Below, one piece after another: positions 94-14,863 of a stretch of DNA of 20,134 bases. The notes under the pieces are model-generated. The model did no database searches, was not told the origin of the DNA, and saw only the letters and a program-made list of their open reading frames with translations. The position numbers were made by a program, and so were the translations under genes. The DNA is from a virus: IMG/VR virus record IMGVR_UViG_3300028025_007030, positions 1 to 20,134 of that record, one strand, 5' to 3'. Every line of letters begins with the position of its first letter. The stretch's first letter is position 1.

Positions 94-897
94 TCACCAA
101 AATCCTGAAAATGAGGATTTTAAACCTAATAATTTAGCATATCTTGGTAATCTACATGACCAATATGAAGGTTTAGTTCTATCTGTTTTATTTTTACAAT
201 CATGACGTGCAGCAAATGCTCTACGTGCTTTAGGGTCATTTATTTTAGCAGACATTCCTGCTTGTCCAAAGGATACTTTTTTAACTTTACCTTTATCTCT
301 AACGTAAACGTAGAATTTTTTAGATCCACCGCGTTTTGGTTTTCCAATTGGTGGAGTTTTCTTTTTATCTTCGGCTTCGTCTAATTTATCTTCCTCCAAC
401 ATAGGTAAATCTAAAGGTACTTTTTCTTCAAGTATTTTAATATCTTTTTCCTTTACTTTGATTTCCTTTTTACCTGTCATTGTATCATAGATAGATCTAA
501 GGTAAACCCAATCACCATCTCTTCCTATAATGTCGTATTCTTCACCTTCAAATTCTACAGATTCATATATTCCGTATTCACCTAAATTAGTTTCAAGTAA
601 AATTTCTTTGTCATCGTCATTTACATGAATAATTTCACGTAAATATAAGTAACGAGCTTCCGACCATAAATTAAGGAAAGCTTTGGAACCATAACGGAAC
701 GTGTTTTCGGTTAGTGGTAATTTATTATCCACGTGATAACGCAGATTTTCCGATAATATATCTTTTTTAACTAAACTTTCGTTTAATACTACACCAGCAT
801 TACCTGTATTATCACAATCATGGCAACCACAATTGCATTTATCTTTTTTAGGGGGAGTAGATAATACTTCTTTTATTAAATGTCTTAAACGTTCCAT
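94..897 (-). CDS. Conserved phage protein with N-terminal Cys cluster and structural-protein-type C terminus
   Basis: A 267-residue protein with three visible parts. Residues 21-28 form a tight cluster, CNCGCHDC (four Cys and one His in eight residues), that could bind a metal. Residues about 50-165 hold a conserved-looking segment with DNKLPLTENTFRYGS and TNLGEYGIYE. A Lys/Pro-rich linker (about 175-190) leads to a basic C-terminal module (about 192-258) with the pattern KKFYVYVRDKGKVKKVSFG ... RRAFAARHDC ... YWSCRLPRY. From memory, this C-terminal module recurs at the ends of prohead or other structural proteins in marine T4-like phages, which suggests a head-assembly or virion role. The start follows the TAG stop of the 909-2135 gene by 11 bases. 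It ends in TGA followed at once by TAA. The exact function is unknown. Confidence 0.8.
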   Translation of the reverse strand: MERLRHLIKEVLSTPPKKDKCNCGCHDCDNTGNAGVVLNESLVKKDILSENLRYHVDNKLPLTENTFRYGSKAFLNLWSEARYLYLREIIHVNDDDKEILLETNLGEYGIYESVEFEGEEYDIIGRDGDWVYLRSIYDTMTGKKEIKVKEKDIKILEEKVPLDLPMLEEDKLDEAEDKKKTPPIGKPKRGGSKKFYVYVRDKGKVKKVSFGQAGMSAKINDPKARRAFAARHDCKNKTDRTKPSYWSCRLPRYAKLLGLKSSFSGFW

Positions 898-2135: not shown

Positions 2136-2608
2136 TATGCCTCTGGTGTTTCTGCTGGTGGGGTTTCTTCTGGGGTTTCTGCAGGAGGGGTTTCTTCAGT
2201 TGGTGGGATACCTAAATCGGCTTCACCTTCTGCTCCTTCTCCACCTTTAACTCCATATCTTAAAATATTAGCTATAGATTGTGCTGCTCTTTCTTCTTCA
2301 GGTAAATTTAATAGGTAATATTTTTTACCTTCAACTTGAGCAATCCAACTACGTTTACCATAAATTAAATAAAAATTTTGATCATTTTTTAAATTAATTC
2401 TAAATGTGGTAGGACGTGGAGCAACCCAATCAATTGAAGCTAAAAAGCTATCGTATTCTGGGGTAAGCAAATCAACTAGAACTTCTTTTAATTCAGGGAA
2501 TTTGGTTAGCTCATCATATTGTACAGCTTCTTCAGGTGTAATCGTTTGATTTGAGTACACTTGTTTGATTAAAACCCTTAATCTATTTTGAAGTTCTTTG
2601 CGAGTCAT
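2135..2608 (-). CDS. Hypothetical phage protein with Pro/Glu repeat tail
   Basis: A 157-residue protein of unknown family. The N terminus (MTRKELQNRLRVLIKQVYSN) is a basic amphipathic helix of the same flavour as the starts of neighbouring proteins. The middle (about 60-118) looks like a small beta-rich domain. Residues about 133-157 are a low-complexity acidic tail built from ETPPAETPE units, encoded by a 27-base tandem repeat. It overlaps both neighbours by one base through TAATG junctions (2606-2610 and 2133-2137), pointing to coupled translation in one operon. No catalytic motif is visible. Its place among other acidic or helical small proteins suggests a virion-assembly or accessory role, but this is inference. 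Confidence 0.7.
   Translation of the reverse strand: MTRKELQNRLRVLIKQVYSNQTITPEEAVQYDELTKFPELKEVLVDLLTPEYDSFLASIDWVAPRPTTFRINLKNDQNFYLIYGKRSWIAQVEGKKYYLLNLPEEERAAQSIANILRYGVKGGEGAEGEADLGIPPTEETPPAETPEETPPAETPEA
2142..2195 (-). repeat. 27-base tandem repeat coding for Pro/Glu tail
   Basis: Two adjacent imperfect 27-base units (2142-2168 and 2169-2195) encode the repeated ETPPAETPE tail of the 2135-2608 protein. Differences are few, consistent with a duplication inside the gene. It is in frame, so repeat-number change would alter only tail length. Confidence 0.75.
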
Positions 2609-3297
2609 TATTTTTTAAGTTTAGCTAAAACAACTTCTTTAATTTTTGCTTTCATAGCCTGTGAAGTAGCAATTTTACCTGCTTTTTCATCAGACATTCC
2701 TTTATCTTTTAAAGTATCGTATATTTCACCTCTTTTTTTAACTTGTTTTTTAGACATTTTTTCATCAAGAGATGCACCGTTTACTATAGAATCGATTTGA
2801 GGTTCTTTTAATTCAAAATCAAGGTAATGTTTTACACTTGACATCATGTTTTTAGCAGTAGTAATTTTTGATTGTAACCAAGCCGGAAAATCAACTTCTT
2901 GTTCACCTTCAAACCCGTCCATCATTTTATAAAGATCCATAGCATATTTACCAATTTGGTAAAGTTCAGCTTTAATCATATGTGGTTCATTGTCTTGGTG
3001 GCCTATATCAAGATCTTCATCTAATTCTGTTTGCTTTTCATTTAAAGGCTTAGATAAAGCCGCTTGAATCATTTCTTTTAATTTTTGTTCTTGATCCATT
3101 GGTTCTTCAGTTGTTGGTTCCTCAATACTATTAGCTGACTTTTTTTTAACCTGGTTTACGGCAGTAGAATAAGCTACTCGCTCAGCCTCTCTGCCGTACT
3201 TTTTTACCAAATTGTCTCTTCGAGAATTAACGATGGCTAAAAATTTGTCGTAAATTTCTTTTGATTCATCAGATGAAAATGCCTCGTTAATATTCAT
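2608..3297 (-). CDS. Conserved helical phage protein of unknown function
   Basis: A 229-residue, mostly alpha-helical, charged protein. Three parts can be seen. An N-terminal helical segment (about 12-52) contains KKYGREAERVAYSTAVNQVK. A central segment (about 96-172) has the pattern DIGHQDNEPHMIKAELYQIG, then DFPAWLQSKITTAKNMM and SVKHYLDFE. A C-terminal segment (about 184-216) contains YDTLKDKGMSDEKAGKIATS. The central part resembles a family I know as a conserved hypothetical in many T4-like marine phages. The N- and C-terminal helical pairs resemble short ChaB-like or DNA-binding-like motifs of phage proteins. No enzyme motif is seen. The start lies 3 bases after the stop of the histone-like gene, and the stop overlaps the next start (TAATG). 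Confidence 0.75.
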   Translation of the reverse strand: MNINEAFSSDESKEIYDKFLAIVNSRRDNLVKKYGREAERVAYSTAVNQVKKKSANSIEEPTTEEPMDQEQKLKEMIQAALSKPLNEKQTELDEDLDIGHQDNEPHMIKAELYQIGKYAMDLYKMMDGFEGEQEVDFPAWLQSKITTAKNMMSSVKHYLDFELKEPQIDSIVNGASLDEKMSKKQVKKRGEIYDTLKDKGMSDEKAGKIATSQAMKAKIKEVVLAKLKK

Positions 3298-3503: not shown

Positions 3504-3974
3504 TTACTGTTCTCCTCCACCAATATATTCGCTAACGAAAAATTTCAGTGTGTTTCCTACTTGTGTTTCAAGTTTCTCATTATTCATACCTTTTGCAATT
3601 TGAAATGCTTTCATCAAATGATCCATAAGATCAGCTTCAGTACCTTTCATATCAGCTGCAAGATCTTCTATACCCCCACCACCATCAACAGGTGTATCTT
3701 CAGCAGGTATATCTTCTATAGGTGCATCTTCAGCAGGTATATCTTCAGTTTCAGTGTCAGTTACTTCAACATCTGCTTCTTCGTCTTTTTTCTTTTTTGC
3801 CTCATCTAGGTCTTCATCACTATTTAATTCAGCAATAATCATCTCACGAATTTTATCGCGCATATTACCTTCATTAATACCATGAATATTAGTGTTTTTA
3901 CCTATTATAGTATTTAAATTCTCTAAAGCTTTACTTTCTTTCAAGAATTTTTTTAAATCAAAATTATCTGCCAT
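3504..3974 (-). CDS. Acidic phage protein with Asp/Glu/Pro repeat
   Basis: A 156-residue, strongly acidic protein. Residues 1-58 are helical and include IREMIIAELNSDEDLDE. A short Lys patch (AKKKKDEEA) follows, then a low-complexity block (about 70-98) of EDIPAEDAPIEDIPAEDTP type encoded by a 30-base direct repeat. The C terminus (about 104-156) is a predicted helical domain, DLAADMKGTEADLMDHLMKA and KFFVSEYIGGGEQ. No enzymatic motif is visible. Acidic flexible proteins beside small basic proteins in phage operons can be scaffold, core or internal head proteins, but nothing here proves that. The leader is A/T-only (AATAAAAAATAAAAA before ATG), the typical start context of this window. It lies 3 bases from the stop of the GAF-like gene. 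Confidence 0.7.
   Translation of the reverse strand: MADNFDLKKFLKESKALENLNTIIGKNTNIHGINEGNMRDKIREMIIAELNSDEDLDEAKKKKDEEADVEVTDTETEDIPAEDAPIEDIPAEDTPVDGGGGIEDLAADMKGTEADLMDHLMKAFQIAKGMNNEKLETQVGNTLKFFVSEYIGGGEQ
3691..3750 (-). repeat. 30-base direct tandem repeat in acidic gene
   Basis: Two adjacent 30-base units at 3691-3720 and 3721-3750 differ at only a few bases, mostly at the ends. They encode the repeated (E/P)EDIPAEDxP block of the acidic protein. The repeat is in frame and looks like a recent local duplication. Confidence 0.75.
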
Positions 3975-4601: not shown

Positions 4602-5173
4602 TATTTTTTTAATGAATTTAAATAGTTAATTACTTCGTCTAGGGATTCTTTTGCTCTTTCTTTATTAATCCCACCAACCCATCTTTCTACATCACCTGCT
4701 TCAGTAACAAAACTATCATTACTTTCTGATAATTTATCTTCTATAAAACTTTTATATTCTTCTATTTGATTGTCGATTTCTTTATTAAAGGTATCTCTTA
4801 AGTACTCTTCCCATTTACCTTCTAATTTAAGTTTAGTTTCAAATTTTGCTCTACAATCCAAGCAACAATTATATGATTTAAAATAAAATGGGTCTAATTG
4901 TCCATCCATTATTTGTTTACAGTCGGGACAAAATAAAGGAACAGCTGCTTTTTTAAATTTGTCTAATTTGGTAATATTTTCTTTAATACCATCTCTAATT
5001 GTCCAAGTTTTACCACCTTGTTCCCAAATATCACCTTCTTTATGTTCTTCTTGAACTTCACCATTGTATCCAATCCCAACTGTAGTTTTATTTCCGTGTT
5101 TACCTTTTATAAGGTTACGTAAACGTTCTACATCTCGTTTTTGAAATTCTTTTTTTAATACTGAATCTGACAT
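4601..5173 (-). CDS. Conserved phage zinc-ribbon protein of unknown function
   Basis: A 190-residue protein. The N terminus has a helical basic segment (KKEFQKRDVERLRNLIKGKH) and a beta segment GDIWEQGGKTWTIRDGIKEN. It is followed by a zinc-ribbon-like core with C82-PDC-85 and a second pair among C103, C104 and C107 (YNCCLDC). The C-terminal half (about 110-190) is a long charged helical region. This arrangement (EFQKRDVER at the start, then TWTIK-type strand, then FCPxC) matches a conserved hypothetical family I recall from T4-like marine phages. A structural zinc site is likely; the role is unknown. It overlaps both neighbours by TAATG junctions, so it is tightly coupled to the HAD phosphatase before it and the GAF-like protein after it. 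Confidence 0.8.
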   Translation of the reverse strand: MSDSVLKKEFQKRDVERLRNLIKGKHGNKTTVGIGYNGEVQEEHKEGDIWEQGGKTWTIRDGIKENITKLDKFKKAAVPLFCPDCKQIMDGQLDPFYFKSYNCCLDCRAKFETKLKLEGKWEEYLRDTFNKEIDNQIEEYKSFIEDKLSESNDSFVTEAGDVERWVGGINKERAKESLDEVINYLNSLKK

Positions 5174-5706
5174 TATAATCCTAGTTGTTTAAGTTGTTCT
5201 ATGGTGCTATTTGCAGAAGTATGTAATATTCCTATTCCACCAGCTTCATTCCATCTATTAATAGTATCTTCTCTATCGTCTATAAGTATTTTATTTTTAC
5301 CCGAAAAATCAGATTTAAATTTAGCAGGTCTAAAATAAATATTTTTCATCCCGTCTAAACGTTGAACCCAATCGCGTTTTCCTTCTCTAGATTCTGGGTT
5401 ATATGTAGGGGCTGTTAGAATATAAGGGTTATATGGTTTAATATAGTTCCATAATTCTTGTCCTCCAGGTTGCCAATTTAAATCAGCCCAATATTGGTAT
5501 TCGGTAATTCCTTTTTCCTTTAAACTATTGTTAAATAGGTTCCAAAACCCATCTCTATCTTGTGAATCAGCATGGCTAGTAGATTTACTAGTTAATTCTT
5601 CATATCCTCTATCAAAATCAACTAATACACCATCCATATCACAAAAAATGATATATTTTGGTTTGATTGCCTCGTATAAATCTAATAGTGTAGGTGTTTT
5701 TTTCAT
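5173..5706 (-). CDS. HAD-family phosphatase, probably a 5'(3')-deoxyribonucleotidase-like enzyme
   Basis: A 177-residue protein with a full set of HAD motifs. Motif I is D23-M-D25-GVLVDF, with the nucleophile Asp and the acid/base Asp both present. Motif II is T98 in PYILTAP. A Lys (K110, SREGKRDW) fits motif III. Motif IV is D143-D144 in ILIDDREDTI. Length and the VLVDF form of motif I fit phage-encoded 5' nucleotidase, deoxy (NT5C-type) enzymes, which remove phosphate from nucleoside monophosphates and adjust the nucleotide pool. It could also be a polynucleotide 3'-phosphatase-type HAD. It ends at a TAATG overlap with the zinc-ribbon gene and starts 18 bases after the nucleotidyltransferase fusion, within the nucleotide-enzyme cluster. 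Confidence 0.85.
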   Translation of the reverse strand: MKKTPTLLDLYEAIKPKYIIFCDMDGVLVDFDRGYEELTSKSTSHADSQDRDGFWNLFNNSLKEKGITEYQYWADLNWQPGGQELWNYIKPYNPYILTAPTYNPESREGKRDWVQRLDGMKNIYFRPAKFKSDFSGKNKILIDDREDTINRWNEAGGIGILHTSANSTIEQLKQLGL

Positions 5707-5724: not shown

Positions 5725-7125
5725 TTACAACATATCTTTTACTCGTTCAAGTAATTCTTCATTAAAATCAACTCCATGTCGAAATTTAAATTGTTTTTCT
5801 AATTTTTCTGTTGAAAATCCTTTATCTTTTAACAATAAGTAAGCTCCTAAATCAGCATCCATTTCATTATCTTTTGAATACGGGCCTGTATGTCCTAAAA
5901 GTAAATGGGCTATTTCATGTGCTTCAACAATTTTCATGTCTTTGAAGTCTAAATCAGAGTTTACAAAAACTTCACCATCTAAAATAATTGTTTTACTTTC
6001 AGGGTAATAAAAACCATATCCATACTCCTCAAATAAAGGTTTTAAATTTGGATAGTTTTCGTTATTTTTAAAAACAACTAATATGTTTGTATCTGGTTTA
6101 AAGTTACTAGGATATGAAATTAAATCATCTTCTTTTTCTTCTTTTAAAACACCTTCAGTAATAGAATCCGTCCAATTTCTAAATATCATATTACCTTTTT
6201 CGTAAGCTTCACGTTCAATTTCAGGTAAATCTCCGTCTTCGTTTGTGTTTTGAGTTGAAATATTATTTAATTTACCATTACAATTTTGTTCATGGTGAAT
6301 CATTTCATGCGCAAATGAACGCATTACGTCTTTTGGATGACGATCCATTGTATATAATACTATAACTTGATTATTTGGATCATAATATGCTGTTTTACCA
6401 AAGAAATTTTCAGCATTTTCAGCATCGTCATCTACAAATTTAACTTTAGGTAAAGGTTGAATTTTCATTCCTTTACTTAACATGTATTGAATTAAAGAAG
6501 ACAACATTGTAGGGTAACTGAATTTGCTAGGTTCAGCATACATTATCTCGTTGAGTGGGGATTTTTGTAAAATAGACCAAACTTTGTCTTTTTCTTCGTC
6601 TGTTAGTTCAGTTGGGATATATGATTGGAATCTTTCTTTTTCTCCCCCAATTAAAGCAGCACGTGTATTAGTACCACTAATACGATCTTCTCCTTCTGAT
6701 TTGATTACAATGGTTTTAAAATTAGGATATTTTCCCTCTAGACTGTCAAAACGTTTTAAATCCCCTAAATCCATCTCACCTCGAATACCTACTACTGGGT
6801 AGTACATGGTTTCAGGGTTGTTTTTGATATAAGAAGTAACATCAGCTATTGGAGATGAGTTATCTGCTATTTTGATTTCAACATTAGGAGGTAAATATTT
6901 TTGATATATATCCCATACAGCTTTACTTTCCTCTTTAGTTACTCCATCTCTATCTTTATGACCAATTAAAACGATTACTTTATCAATGTTTGAGTTTTTA
7001 GCTACTTCATCTACTAATGCAAAATGACCTACTGTAGGTGGTTTAAATCCACCAGGTACTAAAGCAATATTTTTACTTTCTTGCTCTAAAATAGGTTGTA
7101 TAATTGATTTAACTAATAAATTCAT
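5725..7125 (-). CDS. Nucleotidyltransferase fused to two HExxH metallopeptidase-like segments
   Basis: A 466-residue multidomain protein. Residues about 18-190 are a cytidylyltransferase-like (HIGH-superfamily) nucleotidyltransferase. It shows G25-GFKPPTVGH-34 at the first strand/helix, VIVLIGHKDR after the second strand, and the late motif I149-SGTNTR-155, equivalent to the ISxTxxR of NMN/pantetheine-phosphate adenylyltransferases. Residues about 200-320 carry a zinc-metallopeptidase signature, H273-EMIH-277, with Glu candidates for the third ligand in E302-x-E304-x-E306. Residues about 335-466 carry a second one, H403-EIAH-407, followed by E421-MDAD-425. Both are gluzincin-like in spacing. 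The transferase's nucleotide substrate is not readable from sequence. The start overlaps the P-loop kinase gene by 17 bases. The fusion is unusual: see findings. Confidence 0.85.
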   Translation of the reverse strand: MNLLVKSIIQPILEQESKNIALVPGGFKPPTVGHFALVDEVAKNSNIDKVIVLIGHKDRDGVTKEESKAVWDIYQKYLPPNVEIKIADNSSPIADVTSYIKNNPETMYYPVVGIRGEMDLGDLKRFDSLEGKYPNFKTIVIKSEGEDRISGTNTRAALIGGEKERFQSYIPTELTDEEKDKVWSILQKSPLNEIMYAEPSKFSYPTMLSSLIQYMLSKGMKIQPLPKVKFVDDDAENAENFFGKTAYYDPNNQVIVLYTMDRHPKDVMRSFAHEMIHHEQNCNGKLNNISTQNTNEDGDLPEIEREAYEKGNMIFRNWTDSITEGVLKEEKEDDLISYPSNFKPDTNILVVFKNNENYPNLKPLFEEYGYGFYYPESKTIILDGEVFVNSDLDFKDMKIVEAHEIAHLLLGHTGPYSKDNEMDADLGAYLLLKDKGFSTEKLEKQFKFRHGVDFNEELLERVKDML

Positions 7126-7858
7126 TTACTTTATTTTTTGCTACATCTAGTGTATCAAATTCACGTTCTATATCTAAAAGTGATTTTATTTCTTGATTTG
7201 TTTTTTCTTTATCTGCTTTAGATTTTTCTACTTCTTCAGGTGATTTTTCTCTTCCTGTTGGTTGAGGGAACGCTTTAATTATTGATTGCACATCAAATGT
7301 AGGATCAGCATTTTCAGGGTCGTTATTTAAAACAACAATGTTATTTCCAAATGCTTGTCTATAAATATCAATATTTTTTACTACACCTTCCCAACTTTTT
7401 AATACAGCACTTGTAGGTAAACTTCTACCACGTTCCGCATTACGTTTTAAAGATGTCATAGGGGATACATAAAGTAATATCATAAATGTATCGTACCCCA
7501 TTGCCTCTAAATCTTCTTTTTTCTTAAGTAGTGGATTTGATGCAGCACCTGTGCCATCAATTACAACATTTTCTGAACTAGATAAGGTTTGTTTTTCTTT
7601 TTCTCTTGTTACTACTCTAGCTTTACCCATTAATTTAGCTGCTCGGGATAACTCTTCAGGTGACATTGAAGCAAAATCTTCCTTACCTAATTCTGTTTTT
7701 AACAATTCTTCATAAACGTCATCTACGTTTATTACTTTAAAATTTTTAAGACCTAATTGATTAAGTATAGTTGTCTTACCAGATCCAGCAGGCCCCGCCA
7801 TAAAAATGGCTTTAGGTTTTGATTGAATCTCTTTAAGTAATTGAACTAGACTTATCAT
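7109..7858 (-). CDS. P-loop kinase, zeta-toxin/AAA_33-like
   Basis: A 249-residue NTPase or kinase. The Walker A motif is G22-PAGSGKT-29 after strand KAIFMA. An acidic pair D46-D47 (VINVDDVYEE) occupies the place of the substrate or catalytic Asp of zeta-type kinases. D101-GTG-104 (NVVIDGTGA) is the next strand motif. An Arg-rich lid, KRNAERGRSLP, follows strand TFMILLYVS. The core is complete by about residue 195. The last 50 residues are a charged, coiled-coil-like extension. Zeta toxins phosphorylate UDP-sugars, but many phage members are polynucleotide, nucleoside or unknown kinases, so the substrate is left open. No epsilon-type antitoxin is next to it, which argues against a toxin module. 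It overlaps the following nucleotidyltransferase gene by 17 bases, suggesting coupled expression. Confidence 0.85.
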   Translation of the reverse strand: MISLVQLLKEIQSKPKAIFMAGPAGSGKTTILNQLGLKNFKVINVDDVYEELLKTELGKEDFASMSPEELSRAAKLMGKARVVTREKEKQTLSSSENVVIDGTGAASNPLLKKKEDLEAMGYDTFMILLYVSPMTSLKRNAERGRSLPTSAVLKSWEGVVKNIDIYRQAFGNNIVVLNNDPENADPTFDVQSIIKAFPQPTGREKSPEEVEKSKADKEKTNQEIKSLLDIEREFDTLDVAKNKVNEFIS

Positions 7859-11458: not shown

Positions 11459-14400
11459 TTATTTTGATGCCCATCCTGTATTTCCTGTTCCTGATTCTTT
11501 TACATAAAGTGTAGAACCTACTCCACCCGTTAAATTAATATAAATAGTTCCTACGTCAGCAGCAAGTACTCCTTCAGGGGCTCCAGAACCTTTTAATTTT
11601 AATGGTGCATATATGTTACCTTCTGTTATCCAATAATCTGGTTGTTTTCCTGAGGGATTGATAGAGGTTGGGTTTGTAATATTTAAATTATTTCCTGAGT
11701 CAAAGAAATTTGTAAAAGAACTGGTTGGGGTTATATAAGCTCCTCTAATTTTGTTTCCATCTCCTATTAATGTATTTCCTATAAATGTAAAGTTAATTAT
11801 ATCAGCATTATTATTTGCTTGTAAAAAATATCCATCTATTTGAGAACCACTAAAATAACAATTTTGAATATTTAAATTTTCAATCGGGGATGCTAAAGTT
11901 ATAGGAACAGAATAAGCATCATATATTTTGCAATTGTTTAGATTTAATTGTTTTAAATTTAATCCATTGTCTGTTATAACTAACCTAGGAGCATTGGTTT
12001 CACAATTTGTTAGTGTTACAGGTGTATCATCATATAAACGTAAAGCAGAATAAAATGCACTAGAACCAGTGGAAGGAGATGAATATATAGTTTTTAAATT
12101 TTCAATTCTAAATTCATTTGAACCTCCGGTTAAGTTATTATTACTTAAATTAATTCCACAACGAGTATTATATGATTTTATATTTTTTATATTAACAAAA
12201 GAAGAAGTAATAGCAGAAATATTAAGACATATACTAGTATCATCAAAAGATGGATTATACATGTCAATATCTTCAATAGTTAAACGTTGAACTTCTGTAC
12301 CTACAGATGAAAAACCAATAGAACAATCATCTAGATTTAATCCCTTAATATATATTTCTTGCAGTCCATTATAATTTCCTGTTGATGCTCCAATATAACA
12401 ATCTTTAACATTACAATTTATTATATGTGTTGTTCTGCCTTCTATACTAAAACCATTAGGAAAATTAATAGGTGGTGGGGTACCATACCTATTAAATCCT
12501 CCAATTGCTGTACAATTATAGAAATACACTGAACCACAAGTAGCATGTGAATCAAATATTGAAGATGTTGTATGGGCTTTACCTATAAAATTTGTTATTT
12601 TATTTCCCCATCCTACACCCCTATCTGAATCTGTTCCAAATGTTATAGAGTGTCTATTACTTTCACTAGTACCACTAAAAGTTCCATACATTGTTGAATT
12701 ACCTATAGCTATACCATACCCAGCACCATCTTTATTAGCACCATAGTTATTAACATGAACTGTTGGTGAATAACAATCTATTACACTTAAAGAACGTTCA
12801 ATAGCCCCTATAATTTTGACATCAATAGTTGGAGTATCTAAATATTTTAATAAAATTCCTTTTGAATCAATTTGACCACCTTGTTCAACATTTAACGTTC
12901 CTATAGTTTCGAATTTGCCTGAGGTAATTTTAGAAATACTAGCGTCATTTGAAAGTAGGTATGTATCTTCCCACCAACCATAGATATAAATTTCCCCATT
13001 AGATCCGGTTGAATATACTCTTTGAATTTCTCCTTGGGTTCCACCTTCTGCTGATCCTGTATTAAATTGTTGTGCTGAGGTAACTTTAATTAAGTCTCCT
13101 TGTTTTATATTTAATTGAGATAAAGTTATTGGGTTTATTGAAGCTGTGGAATAACCTCTTAAAATATCAGAGGTAGCATTGTATCTTGAAGATCTACTTC
13201 CGGTTGCAAATAAAACAAAATCAGTAGTATCAGATATTAATTTAGAGGTTGGTTCACTAAATACTATAGTATTAGTAGCATTAATAGGTTGGTTAACATT
13301 ATAGATACCATTTAAACATATAGGAACATTTGTAACTCTAGATGCACTGAAAGAATTTTGAAGAGCATTTGTGTCATCAACTATTCCATTTCCTATAGCA
13401 CCATAATTTTCAGGGTAAATAAAACCACTTGATGTTAAATTTATAGGTAAATCAGTTAAACCACTACCATCTCCAATAAAAGAACTAGAAATAATTGATG
13501 CTGTTAATGGTTGATTAAATATTATACCATTTAAATTAAATACAGCTAAATCACTTCTATTGTTGTTTGAAGTACCATTTCCTATTATTACTAGAGAACT
13601 AGTATTATTTTGGGTATTATATCTACCCATTACACTTTGATATGAACCTGATGCTATAGTAGCTAAACCTTCAGCATGTGAAGCTGTTCCTAAAGTTCTA
13701 GTACCATATCCTTCAGCATGTGAAGCATATCCTGCTGCTATAGATTGGTATCCTTCAGCATGGGAGTATGTTCCATCTTGTCCAAATTCTGTAGCTCCCG
13801 CTTGCCCAGGAATACCTGTTCTAGTGAATGCTCCTTCAGCATGTGAATACCACCCACCTGCTATAGAAGCATACCCTTCAGCATGTGATGCTCTACCTAA
13901 AGCTTTTGTAATTGTTCCTTCAGCATGTGAATAATAACCAGAATACCAATTAAATCTAGCTTGTTCAGCGGCATATGAATCTACTTGATCTCCAGAACCT
14001 GCTGTTATGATACTGAAAGTAGCTGATGATGTATTCCAAGTACCAAAAGTAATAGGTGAATCATTTTGTGATACCCAAGCAGAACCTGAATATCTGTAAA
14101 GTAAATTATTATTTGTGTTGTACCAAATATATCCTGTTTTTAAAGGGTCACCGTCTTCATCTTGTGTTGGTGCCGACGCAGATATAAAAAATGGTTCAAC
14201 ATACATTCCACCAGCTTCTGTTCCTGAACCTTCAGCATGTGAGTATCTTGAATTAGCGTATGTTGATCTGCCTTCAGCATGTGCTGAAAAACCAGCATAT
14301 GTGTAAGAACCTTCTGAGTGCCCAAATCTGGAGGAGGTGGTTTGTTGTCCAGTTGCAAATCCATATCCATCTACAACTAATGCTTCATTTCCAAAAGCAA

Positions 14401-14863
14401 ATCCCCACCAATTTGTAACACCTTCTACAGGATAACCAAAAATGTCTAATGTAGGTACTAAAATTCTACTTCCACTACCACCAGCAAAAGCATATCTAAG
14501 ACTACTACTTACAAAATTTCCACTTCCAATTACATGTGACCAATCACCATTATTTATGTTATTTCTTCCCCCAACATATGAACCTCTCCCACTAATTGTA
14601 TTATCTTCTCCAGCACCATGTGAATATAAACCAGTTACAATTAAATCTTTTCCTTGTTTAAAACTTTGGGAAGGGTTAATGTACTGAAATAGATTACTTG
14701 AAAAAAAACTATTGTTTAGTTTATATTGAATATTATAATCTATTCCTGGGGGGGTTAAGGGGATATTAGTTAAACCAGAACCATCTCCAATAAAAGAACC
14801 TGTAAAAGATCCTGTTATTTCATAAAATTGCCCTGCTAACTGCTTAGGTTGGATTAATGCCAT
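11459..14863 (-). CDS. Tailspike with YadA-head-like repeats and pectate-lyase-type beta helix
   Basis: A 1134-residue modular tailspike. The N terminus has a fibre motif, SFIGDGSGLTNIP (about 24-36). Residues about 182-400 carry nine repeats of the SHAEG type with a 13-14-residue period, like the YadA-head (trimeric beta-roll) repeats of adhesins. They are broken by an inserted segment at about 213-308. A second SFIGDGSGLTDLP (about 463-475) precedes the classic opening of pectate-lyase-type phage spikes, Y487-GAIGNGIVDDTNALQ. Several hundred residues of parallel beta helix follow. The C terminus has the common fibre end VGSTLYVKESGTGNTGW. It probably binds, and possibly cleaves, a host surface polysaccharide. 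Catalytic residues of lyases or hydrolases cannot be assigned by eye. It forms a TAATG overlap with the small basic gene before it. Confidence 0.9.
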   Translation of the reverse strand: MALIQPKQLAGQFYEITGSFTGSFIGDGSGLTNIPLTPPGIDYNIQYKLNNSFFSSNLFQYINPSQSFKQGKDLIVTGLYSHGAGEDNTISGRGSYVGGRNNINNGDWSHVIGSGNFVSSSLRYAFAGGSGSRILVPTLDIFGYPVEGVTNWWGFAFGNEALVVDGYGFATGQQTTSSRFGHSEGSYTYAGFSAHAEGRSTYANSRYSHAEGSGTEAGGMYVEPFFISASAPTQDEDGDPLKTGYIWYNTNNNLLYRYSGSAWVSQNDSPITFGTWNTSSATFSIITAGSGDQVDSYAAEQARFNWYSGYYSHAEGTITKALGRASHAEGYASIAGGWYSHAEGAFTRTGIPGQAGATEFGQDGTYSHAEGYQSIAAGYASHAEGYGTRTLGTASHAEGLATIASGSYQSVMGRYNTQNNTSSLVIIGNGTSNNNRSDLAVFNLNGIIFNQPLTASIISSSFIGDGSGLTDLPINLTSSGFIYPENYGAIGNGIVDDTNALQNSFSASRVTNVPICLNGIYNVNQPINATNTIVFSEPTSKLISDTTDFVLFATGSRSSRYNATSDILRGYSTASINPITLSQLNIKQGDLIKVTSAQQFNTGSAEGGTQGEIQRVYSTGSNGEIYIYGWWEDTYLLSNDASISKITSGKFETIGTLNVEQGGQIDSKGILLKYLDTPTIDVKIIGAIERSLSVIDCYSPTVHVNNYGANKDGAGYGIAIGNSTMYGTFSGTSESNRHSITFGTDSDRGVGWGNKITNFIGKAHTTSSIFDSHATCGSVYFYNCTAIGGFNRYGTPPPINFPNGFSIEGRTTHIINCNVKDCYIGASTGNYNGLQEIYIKGLNLDDCSIGFSSVGTEVQRLTIEDIDMYNPSFDDTSICLNISAITSSFVNIKNIKSYNTRCGINLSNNNLTGGSNEFRIENLKTIYSSPSTGSSAFYSALRLYDDTPVTLTNCETNAPRLVITDNGLNLKQLNLNNCKIYDAYSVPITLASPIENLNIQNCYFSGSQIDGYFLQANNNADIINFTFIGNTLIGDGNKIRGAYITPTSSFTNFFDSGNNLNITNPTSINPSGKQPDYWITEGNIYAPLKLKGSGAPEGVLAADVGTIYINLTGGVGSTLYVKESGTGNTGWASK
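13668..14322 (-). repeat. Array of 42-base SHAEG-coding repeats in the tailspike gene
   Basis: Eight copies of a 13-base core (ccttcagcatgtg on the plus strand, one with a substitution) begin at 13668, 13710, 13752, 13833, 13875, 13917, 14229 and 14271. A diverged ninth begins at 14310. Most steps are exactly 42 bases (14 codons). Exceptions are one 81-base step, one 39-base step and one 312-base gap that holds an inserted coding segment. The conserved core encodes SHAEG or AHAEG. Confidence 0.9.

Follow-up and report, generated by a model that had tools for sequence, protein, structure and literature searches.

The open reading frame (ORF) at positions 5725-7125 of the window (the whole stretch of viral DNA that was analysed, 20,134 nucleotides) probably encodes a precursor polyprotein of injected internal head enzymes, which an S77 prohead protease would cut in trans. 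Judged from sequence, this reading is given a probability of about 0.77. The 466-aa protein joins a nucleotidyltransferase (NT) to two zincin-like peptidase modules (M1 and M2), a fusion that makes sense because the junctions carry the [L/I]-x-E motif of prohead proteases. The phage is probably a T4-type (S77-protease) myovirus that infects Flavobacteria.

Features of the open reading frame

The ORF begins with an ATG at 7125 and ends with a stop codon at 5727-5725. The 466 residues placed there by the first-pass annotation were borne out exactly, and the strand, absent from that annotation, is minus. The features are as follows.

5725..7125, minus strand: whole ORF, 466 aa, proposed capsid-targeted polyprotein NT-M1-M2
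7084..7125, minus strand: proposed capsid-targeting propeptide, residues 1-14, MNLLVKSIIQPILE, ending I-L-E (alignment; low pLDDT at 9-15)
6547..7083, minus strand: NT module, HIGH-superfamily nucleotidyltransferase, residues 15-193 (Pfam, PHROGs, alignment, Foldseek)
6547..6555, minus strand: proposed prohead-protease site L191-N192-E193, between NT and M1 (alignment; pLDDT <50 at 189-201)
6139..6546, minus strand: M1 module, zincin-like (DUF6782), residues 194-329 (Pfam, AlphaFold, alignment, stand-alone homologues)
6295..6309, minus strand: HEMIH, residues 273-277 (H, E, H invariant, 48/48)
6208..6216, minus strand: E304-R-E306, candidate third zinc ligand of M1 (both E 48/48; on helix 300-321)
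6154..6162, minus strand: proposed protease site I322-T-E324, end of M1 (E324 41/41, I/L322 46/48)
6139..6147, minus strand: proposed protease site L327-K-E329, between M1 and M2 (L327 and E329 12/12)
5728..6138, minus strand: M2 module, Peptidase_M78 (ImmA/IrrE-type) domain, residues 330-466 (Pfam 6.9e-6, alignment)
5905..5919, minus strand: HEIAH, residues 403-407 (H, E, H invariant, 14/14)
5851..5865, minus strand: E421-M-D-A-D425, candidate third ligand of M2 (E421, D423, D425 14/14)

Domain content

Conservation was counted in an alignment of 51 sequences of relatives, in which the totals differ from column to column (e.g. 48 or 14), and an AlphaFold model of the 466-aa protein was built with 51 sequences. 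Confidence of the model is very low at residues 9-15, 189-201 and 323-400.

The NT module has the [H/T]xGH and ISGTxxR motifs and the Rossmann-type fold of the HIGH superfamily, and is modelled confidently. GGFKPPTVGH occupies residues 25-34 and ISGTNTR residues 149-155; G25, G26, K28, P29, P30, G33 and H34 are kept in 47/47 relatives, and S150, G151, T152 and R155 in 48/48. The match to Pfam CTP_transf_like is weak (E 0.035), PHROGs assigned cytidyltransferase families 3041 (1.7e-11) and 395, and the best Foldseek matches in the PDB are NadM NMNAT and phosphopantetheine adenylyltransferase (PPAT; E 5e-6 to 1e-5). All NCBIfam substrate equivalogs searched (NMNAT, NaMNAT, PPAT) scored far under cut-off, e.g. 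22.9 versus 103 bits. A bifunctional NadR, split into a kinase and an NMNAT, was considered and rejected: the kinase encoded upstream fits zeta toxin best (2.2e-10), with AAA_28, the NadR kinase type, only at 4e-4, and the NCBIfam equivalogs are far under cut-off. As a guess, NT could adenylylate NMN/NaMN, for NAD+ salvage against NAD+-depleting defences, or another small molecule. NAD+ salvage is used by phages and has been discussed against such defences (PMC9503650).

M1 matches the Pfam putative metallopeptidase DUF6782 (E 1.9e-6, over cut-off). Residues H273, E274, H277, E304 and E306 are present in 48/48 relatives, and the model has a strand-strand-HExxH-helix (264-282)-Glu-helix (300-321) arrangement of the zincin type. 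M2 matches Peptidase_M78 (E 6.9e-6, 26.3 bits versus a cut-off of 22), with H403, E404, H407, E421, D423 and D425 in 14/14 relatives, and PHROGs placed the 466-aa protein in metallo-protease phrog_87. M2 relatives are few in the alignment, and M2 was modelled poorly, residues 323-400 having a pLDDT <50; a PDB sequence search with an M2 profile returned nothing meaningful. ImmA/IrrE peptidases, which M2 resembles, cut repressors.

All motifs named in the first-pass annotation (GGFKPPTVGH, ISGTNTR, HEMIH at 273, HEIAH at 403) were located in the ORF, and its domain calls, an NT followed by two zincin-type segments, proved right by Pfam, PHROGs, conserved residues and, for NT and M1, AlphaFold. 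It had proposed His/Glu conservation as a check; the HExxH residues are invariant in 48 (M1) and 14 (M2) relatives, which rules out a chance occurrence of HExxH. Structure prediction, also proposed there, returned the zincin-type helices for M1 and a low-confidence model for M2. Among its third-ligand candidates E421 and D425 of M2 stand, whereas in M1 E304/E306 are better placed than E302 (42/48).

Some relatives carry an alternative third module, M3 (L008:1509-2105 and 27 further loci), in which a HEIEH motif is conserved. The AlphaFold model of M3, fairly confident (pLDDT 82), gave no PDB fold match under E 0.3, and no Pfam match was obtained. M3 is possibly an undescribed zincin family, a label taken from the conserved HEIEH-type residues alone.

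Proposed cleavage motifs and module shuffling

The S77 prohead protease of T4, gp21, cleaves at the signal L/I-X-E; N-terminal capsid-targeting propeptides ending in this signal bring proteins into the head and are removed by gp21 (PMC9026906). At the N-terminal site I12-L13-E14 of the ORF, I/L12 is found in 45/45 and E14 in 44/45 relatives. Between NT and M1, residue 191 is L/I in 44 and V in 4 of 48 sequences and residue 192 is variable; this linker is predicted to be flexible (pLDDT <50, 189-201), yet E193 is invariant.

LxE is short and lone occurrences carry little weight; the motif was also counted over many junctions. A viral-contig search gave 64 loci, to which an M2 query added 12 and an M3 query 28, partly overlapping, for about 100 loci. 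Across them the protein is a mosaic, in which at least 13 modules change partners, join up or stand alone. NT-M1-M2, NT-M1-M3, NT-M1, NT-M1-M2-HAD nucleotidase and M1 alone were all seen; the fusion for which a survey of phage homologues had been suggested recurs, as one of many module orders. Longer chains of up to about 1230 aa add a zinc ribbon, an ART-like domain (Tox-ART-HYD1), DUF6934, a HELIH segment, an N-terminal Pol-beta NTase and a putative DUF5872-like module. The HAD domain stands alone with an N-terminal LLDLYE, and is fused behind PLNE elsewhere (L006/L070 and others).

[LI]xE lies at -11..+3 of module starts in 91/114 cases (0.80), versus 0.18 at random positions, and control motifs (ExL/I, [LI]xD, [LI]xK, [LI]xN, [KR]xE, [LI]xxE, [LI]E) reach 0.02-0.27. 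The module-start signatures were made by hand after the sequences had been looked at, which is why a version based on BLAST HSP breakpoints matters; at those boundaries [LI]xE was found at 0.53 (starts) and 0.66 (ends) versus about 0.27, with controls mostly near background. When each of the 13 modules was counted once, 12/13 had [LI]xE (p ~3e-8; controls near background). There are counter-cases: [VM]xE takes the place of [LI]xE at some junctions, and no [LIVM]xE lies within 14 residues of three module starts. V and M may belong to the local protease specificity, because [VM]xE is also raised at junctions (0.15 versus 0.04).

An insert of about 24 residues, GTCGYxTDxxTGKxLxTPGGIEE, was observed between modules in seven loci (L005, L014, L046, L049, L069, L071, L087; e.g. 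L014 residues 195-218). It has [LIV]xE on both flanks and therefore would come free as a short peptide. The 1130-aa chain at L049:2977-6366 combines a Pol-beta NTase, NT, zinc ribbon, ART (Tox-ART-HYD1-like), HELIH segment and M1; most of its junctions have [L/I]xE.

The protein might instead be injected uncut, with the propeptide alone removed and the internal LxE motifs left as relics of fused tagged genes. Fusion of once-separate tag-bearing genes would indeed leave internal LxE, and the virion RNA polymerase of phage N4, a polyvalent protein, is packaged unprocessed (PMC5512222). Relics would not be expected to persist at E193 in 48/48 and at L327/E329 in 12/12 relatives within otherwise variable linkers, and this explanation is regarded as unlikely.

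Head-maturation machinery in relatives

The prohead protease and capsid genes are absent from the 20-kb window. S77 protease relatives are encoded in 11/12 long related contigs, among whose major capsid proteins (MCPs) conserved GLLE and ILLE/LLLE-type sites occur in the N-terminal propeptide region; most of the S77 proteases have LNES/LNEG near the C-terminus. Flavobacterium phage immuto (NC_055915; host Flavobacterium sp. LMO8) encodes a portal, a capsid protein and a prohead protease of T4 type, its gp070 being Pfam Peptidase_S77 (8.9e-35). [LI]xE occurs in the first 16 residues of 18/28 immuto proteins from tail spike to MCP versus 22/151 elsewhere (p 1.6e-7), the head-locus group having been picked by map position after a first look at the sequences. 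In the same test [LI]xK (p 0.009) and [LI]xxE (p 0.001) were raised far less, and other controls were not significant. No immuto virion proteome was found among the papers searched. The 841-aa immuto gp079 (L066:18039-20564) resembles two adjoining window genes, 2608-3297 and 2135-2608, an apparent further fusion or fission of head-locus genes.

Stand-alone M1 homologues of about 140 aa were found at loci L038-L044, L050, L051 and L062. Their N-termini read MIKLSSLLSE followed by IYAEPS, or MITLTNLLNE followed by VYAEPS (pattern MxxLxxLLNE), and fused M1 is preceded by SPLNE (IMYAEPS), TPIEE (VMYAEPS), TPIQE (IMYAEPS) or GGIEE (MYAEPS). A search for NT in eight contigs with stand-alone M1, which may be incomplete, found none. 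M1 looks like an autonomous unit, because it occurs alone and NT was not found in those contigs.

These data bear on autoprocessing, in which M1 or M2 would cut the chain itself. Zincins are the commonest domain of polyvalent proteins and were proposed to free neighbouring domains (PMC5512222), and M1 is present in nearly all collected relatives, though these were partly found by M1 searches. The junction motif, however, is identical to the known specificity of the S77 protease that such phages encode; it is also present at the N-termini of non-zincin head-locus proteins, in the MCP and in the protease; and M1 without a detected NT is not merely a processing domain. Autoprocessing is accordingly thought improbable. 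The simplest reading is that the M1 and M2 peptidase domains would be cargo and not the processing enzyme. The first-pass annotation had listed a self-processing polyprotein among its options: "polyprotein" is the best-fitting role, but "self-processing" is disfavoured by [L/I]xE separators that fit a separate S77 protease.

Neighbouring genes

The following genes of the window carry the N-terminal motif.

7109..7858, minus strand: P-loop kinase, zeta-toxin-like (Zeta_toxin 2.2e-10), upstream, 17-nt overlap with the ORF
5173..5706, minus strand: HAD 5'-deoxyribonucleotidase, downstream (PHROGs)
3504..3974, minus strand: head-locus protein, N-terminal FLKE, LKE at 3936-3944 (weak phrog_1052 head assembly)
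94..897, minus strand: head-locus protein, N-terminal LIKE, IKE at 868-876 (N-terminal motif, Pfam)

The kinase begins MISLVQLLKE (LKE at 7829-7837), a proposed capsid tag as in the 466-aa ORF, and may be a further packaged enzyme, because its N-terminal LLKE tag matches that of the NT-M1-M2 ORF. The HAD nucleotidase begins MKKTPTLLDLYE, with LYE at 5671-5679, and the 94..897 protein has an internal KLDEAE ahead of a DUF5754-like C-terminal domain. The tail genes of the window are without an N-terminal tag, unlike the kinase, the HAD nucleotidase and the LIKE and FLKE proteins. The tail/fibre-like protein of 1134 aa encoded at 11459-14863 of the window contains numerous repeats of the SHAEG type. 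The gene at 9584-10039 matches a PHROG named "NAD synthetase" (4.7e-29), but homing-endonuclease families match as well, and the PHROG's name is probably an annotation error that has spread through databases.

A cytoplasmic metabolic or host-takeover fusion enzyme without a link to the head, e.g. one combining NAD+ or coenzyme A salvage with a peptidase acting on host proteins, would suit the resemblance of NT to NMN/NaMN adenylyltransferases and PPAT and the use of NAD+ salvage by phages (PMC9503650), but is very unlikely given the position in the head/tail late region, the N-terminal LxE and the cyanophage homologues detected in virions.

Proposed processing and function

For the favoured precursor polyprotein, the following course from packaging and cleavage to injection and targets is proposed. 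The N-terminal 14 residues would act as a capsid-targeting sequence and pull the chain into the prohead core. During head maturation the S77 protease (T4 gp21 type) would cut after [L/I]-x-E at E14, E193 and E324/E329, giving three compact enzymes: NT of about 179 aa, M1 of about 131-136 aa and M2 of about 137 aa. These would stay in the head and enter the host with the injected DNA. There, NT would transfer a nucleotide by chemistry like that of NMN/NaMN adenylyltransferase or of phosphopantetheine adenylyltransferase, and the two zincins could, as a guess, cut host or defence proteins. Several separate enzymes freed in the head are more likely than the single chain first suggested, which would both nucleotidylate and cleave targets. 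An anti-defence role, another early suggestion, is possible for the released parts; a PADLOC search for anti-defence families gave weak matches (E >= 0.004).

More broadly, and with somewhat less confidence, a large group of Bacteroidota T4-type phages (perhaps also cyanophages) appears to build its injected arsenal as cassette polyproteins, in which exchangeable plug-in modules each stand behind their own [L/I]xE site, a single capsid tag brings in the whole set and release is by the head protease. If so, one short motif marks both head-packaged phage proteins and the cut points of precursors, and fusions now "hypothetical" or misnamed, such as a 907-aa "NMN adenylyltransferase", become a list of predicted injected enzymes. 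Packaging would be separated from function, which would explain the presence of unrelated enzymes in one chain, and in proteins of the polyvalent type the prohead protease would replace embedded zincins as the proposed agent of release.

Comparison with known systems

The 907-aa protein is immuto gp088, annotated as NMN adenylyltransferase alone. Like the ORF it contains NT and M1, and the order primase, exonuclease, NT-M1 polyprotein, 5'-nucleotidase is shared; it differs in an N-terminal Pol-beta NTase and in a C-terminal third zincin-like domain (HEIEH) in place of M2.

Mass spectrometry of T4-like cyanophage virions (S-CREM2, S-SCSM1 and S-CBWM1) found cytidylyltransferase/NMNAT-like proteins, although the authors of the S-SCSM1 study considered carry-over of a highly expressed protein possible (PMC10665884, PMC9602691). 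These NTs (PHROG 395/3041) share with the ORF the NT superfamily and an N-terminal FLxE (S-CREM2 MKNFSSFLTE; P-SSM4 MKKFSAFLKE; S-SSM5 MKKFSAFLTE), whereas those checked carry other C-terminal parts, without M1/M2. A distant stand-alone M1 relative in cyanophage B23 begins MNYKQFLRE.

The T4 internal proteins (IPI-III, Alt) have a short propeptide ending in [L/I]xE, an S77 protease, a late head locus and proposed injection (PMC9026906). The ORF likewise has an N-terminal [L/I]xE propeptide, and the S77 protease is encoded in relatives, outside the 20-kb window. The T4 proteins have one function each and a site at the N-terminus (in Alt also near the C-terminus), whereas here enzymes stand in tandem, each junction has a proposed [L/I]xE site, and phages exchange the modules.

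Polyvalent proteins (Iyer et al. 2017, PMC5512222) are modular phage chains that contain zincins, ARTs and Pol-beta NTases; packaging and injection have been proposed for them, and the analogy with polyproteins is already made in that paper. The chains described here also hold several unrelated catalytic domains each, recombined between phages (at least 13 modules, many orders). The combination of a HIGH-type NT with DUF6782/M78 is not among the polyvalent-protein domains described in the sections consulted, which credit release to embedded zincin or assemblin-like peptidases. Zincins are likewise embedded in the 466-aa chain, but its junction motif fits a separate S77 prohead protease acting in trans.
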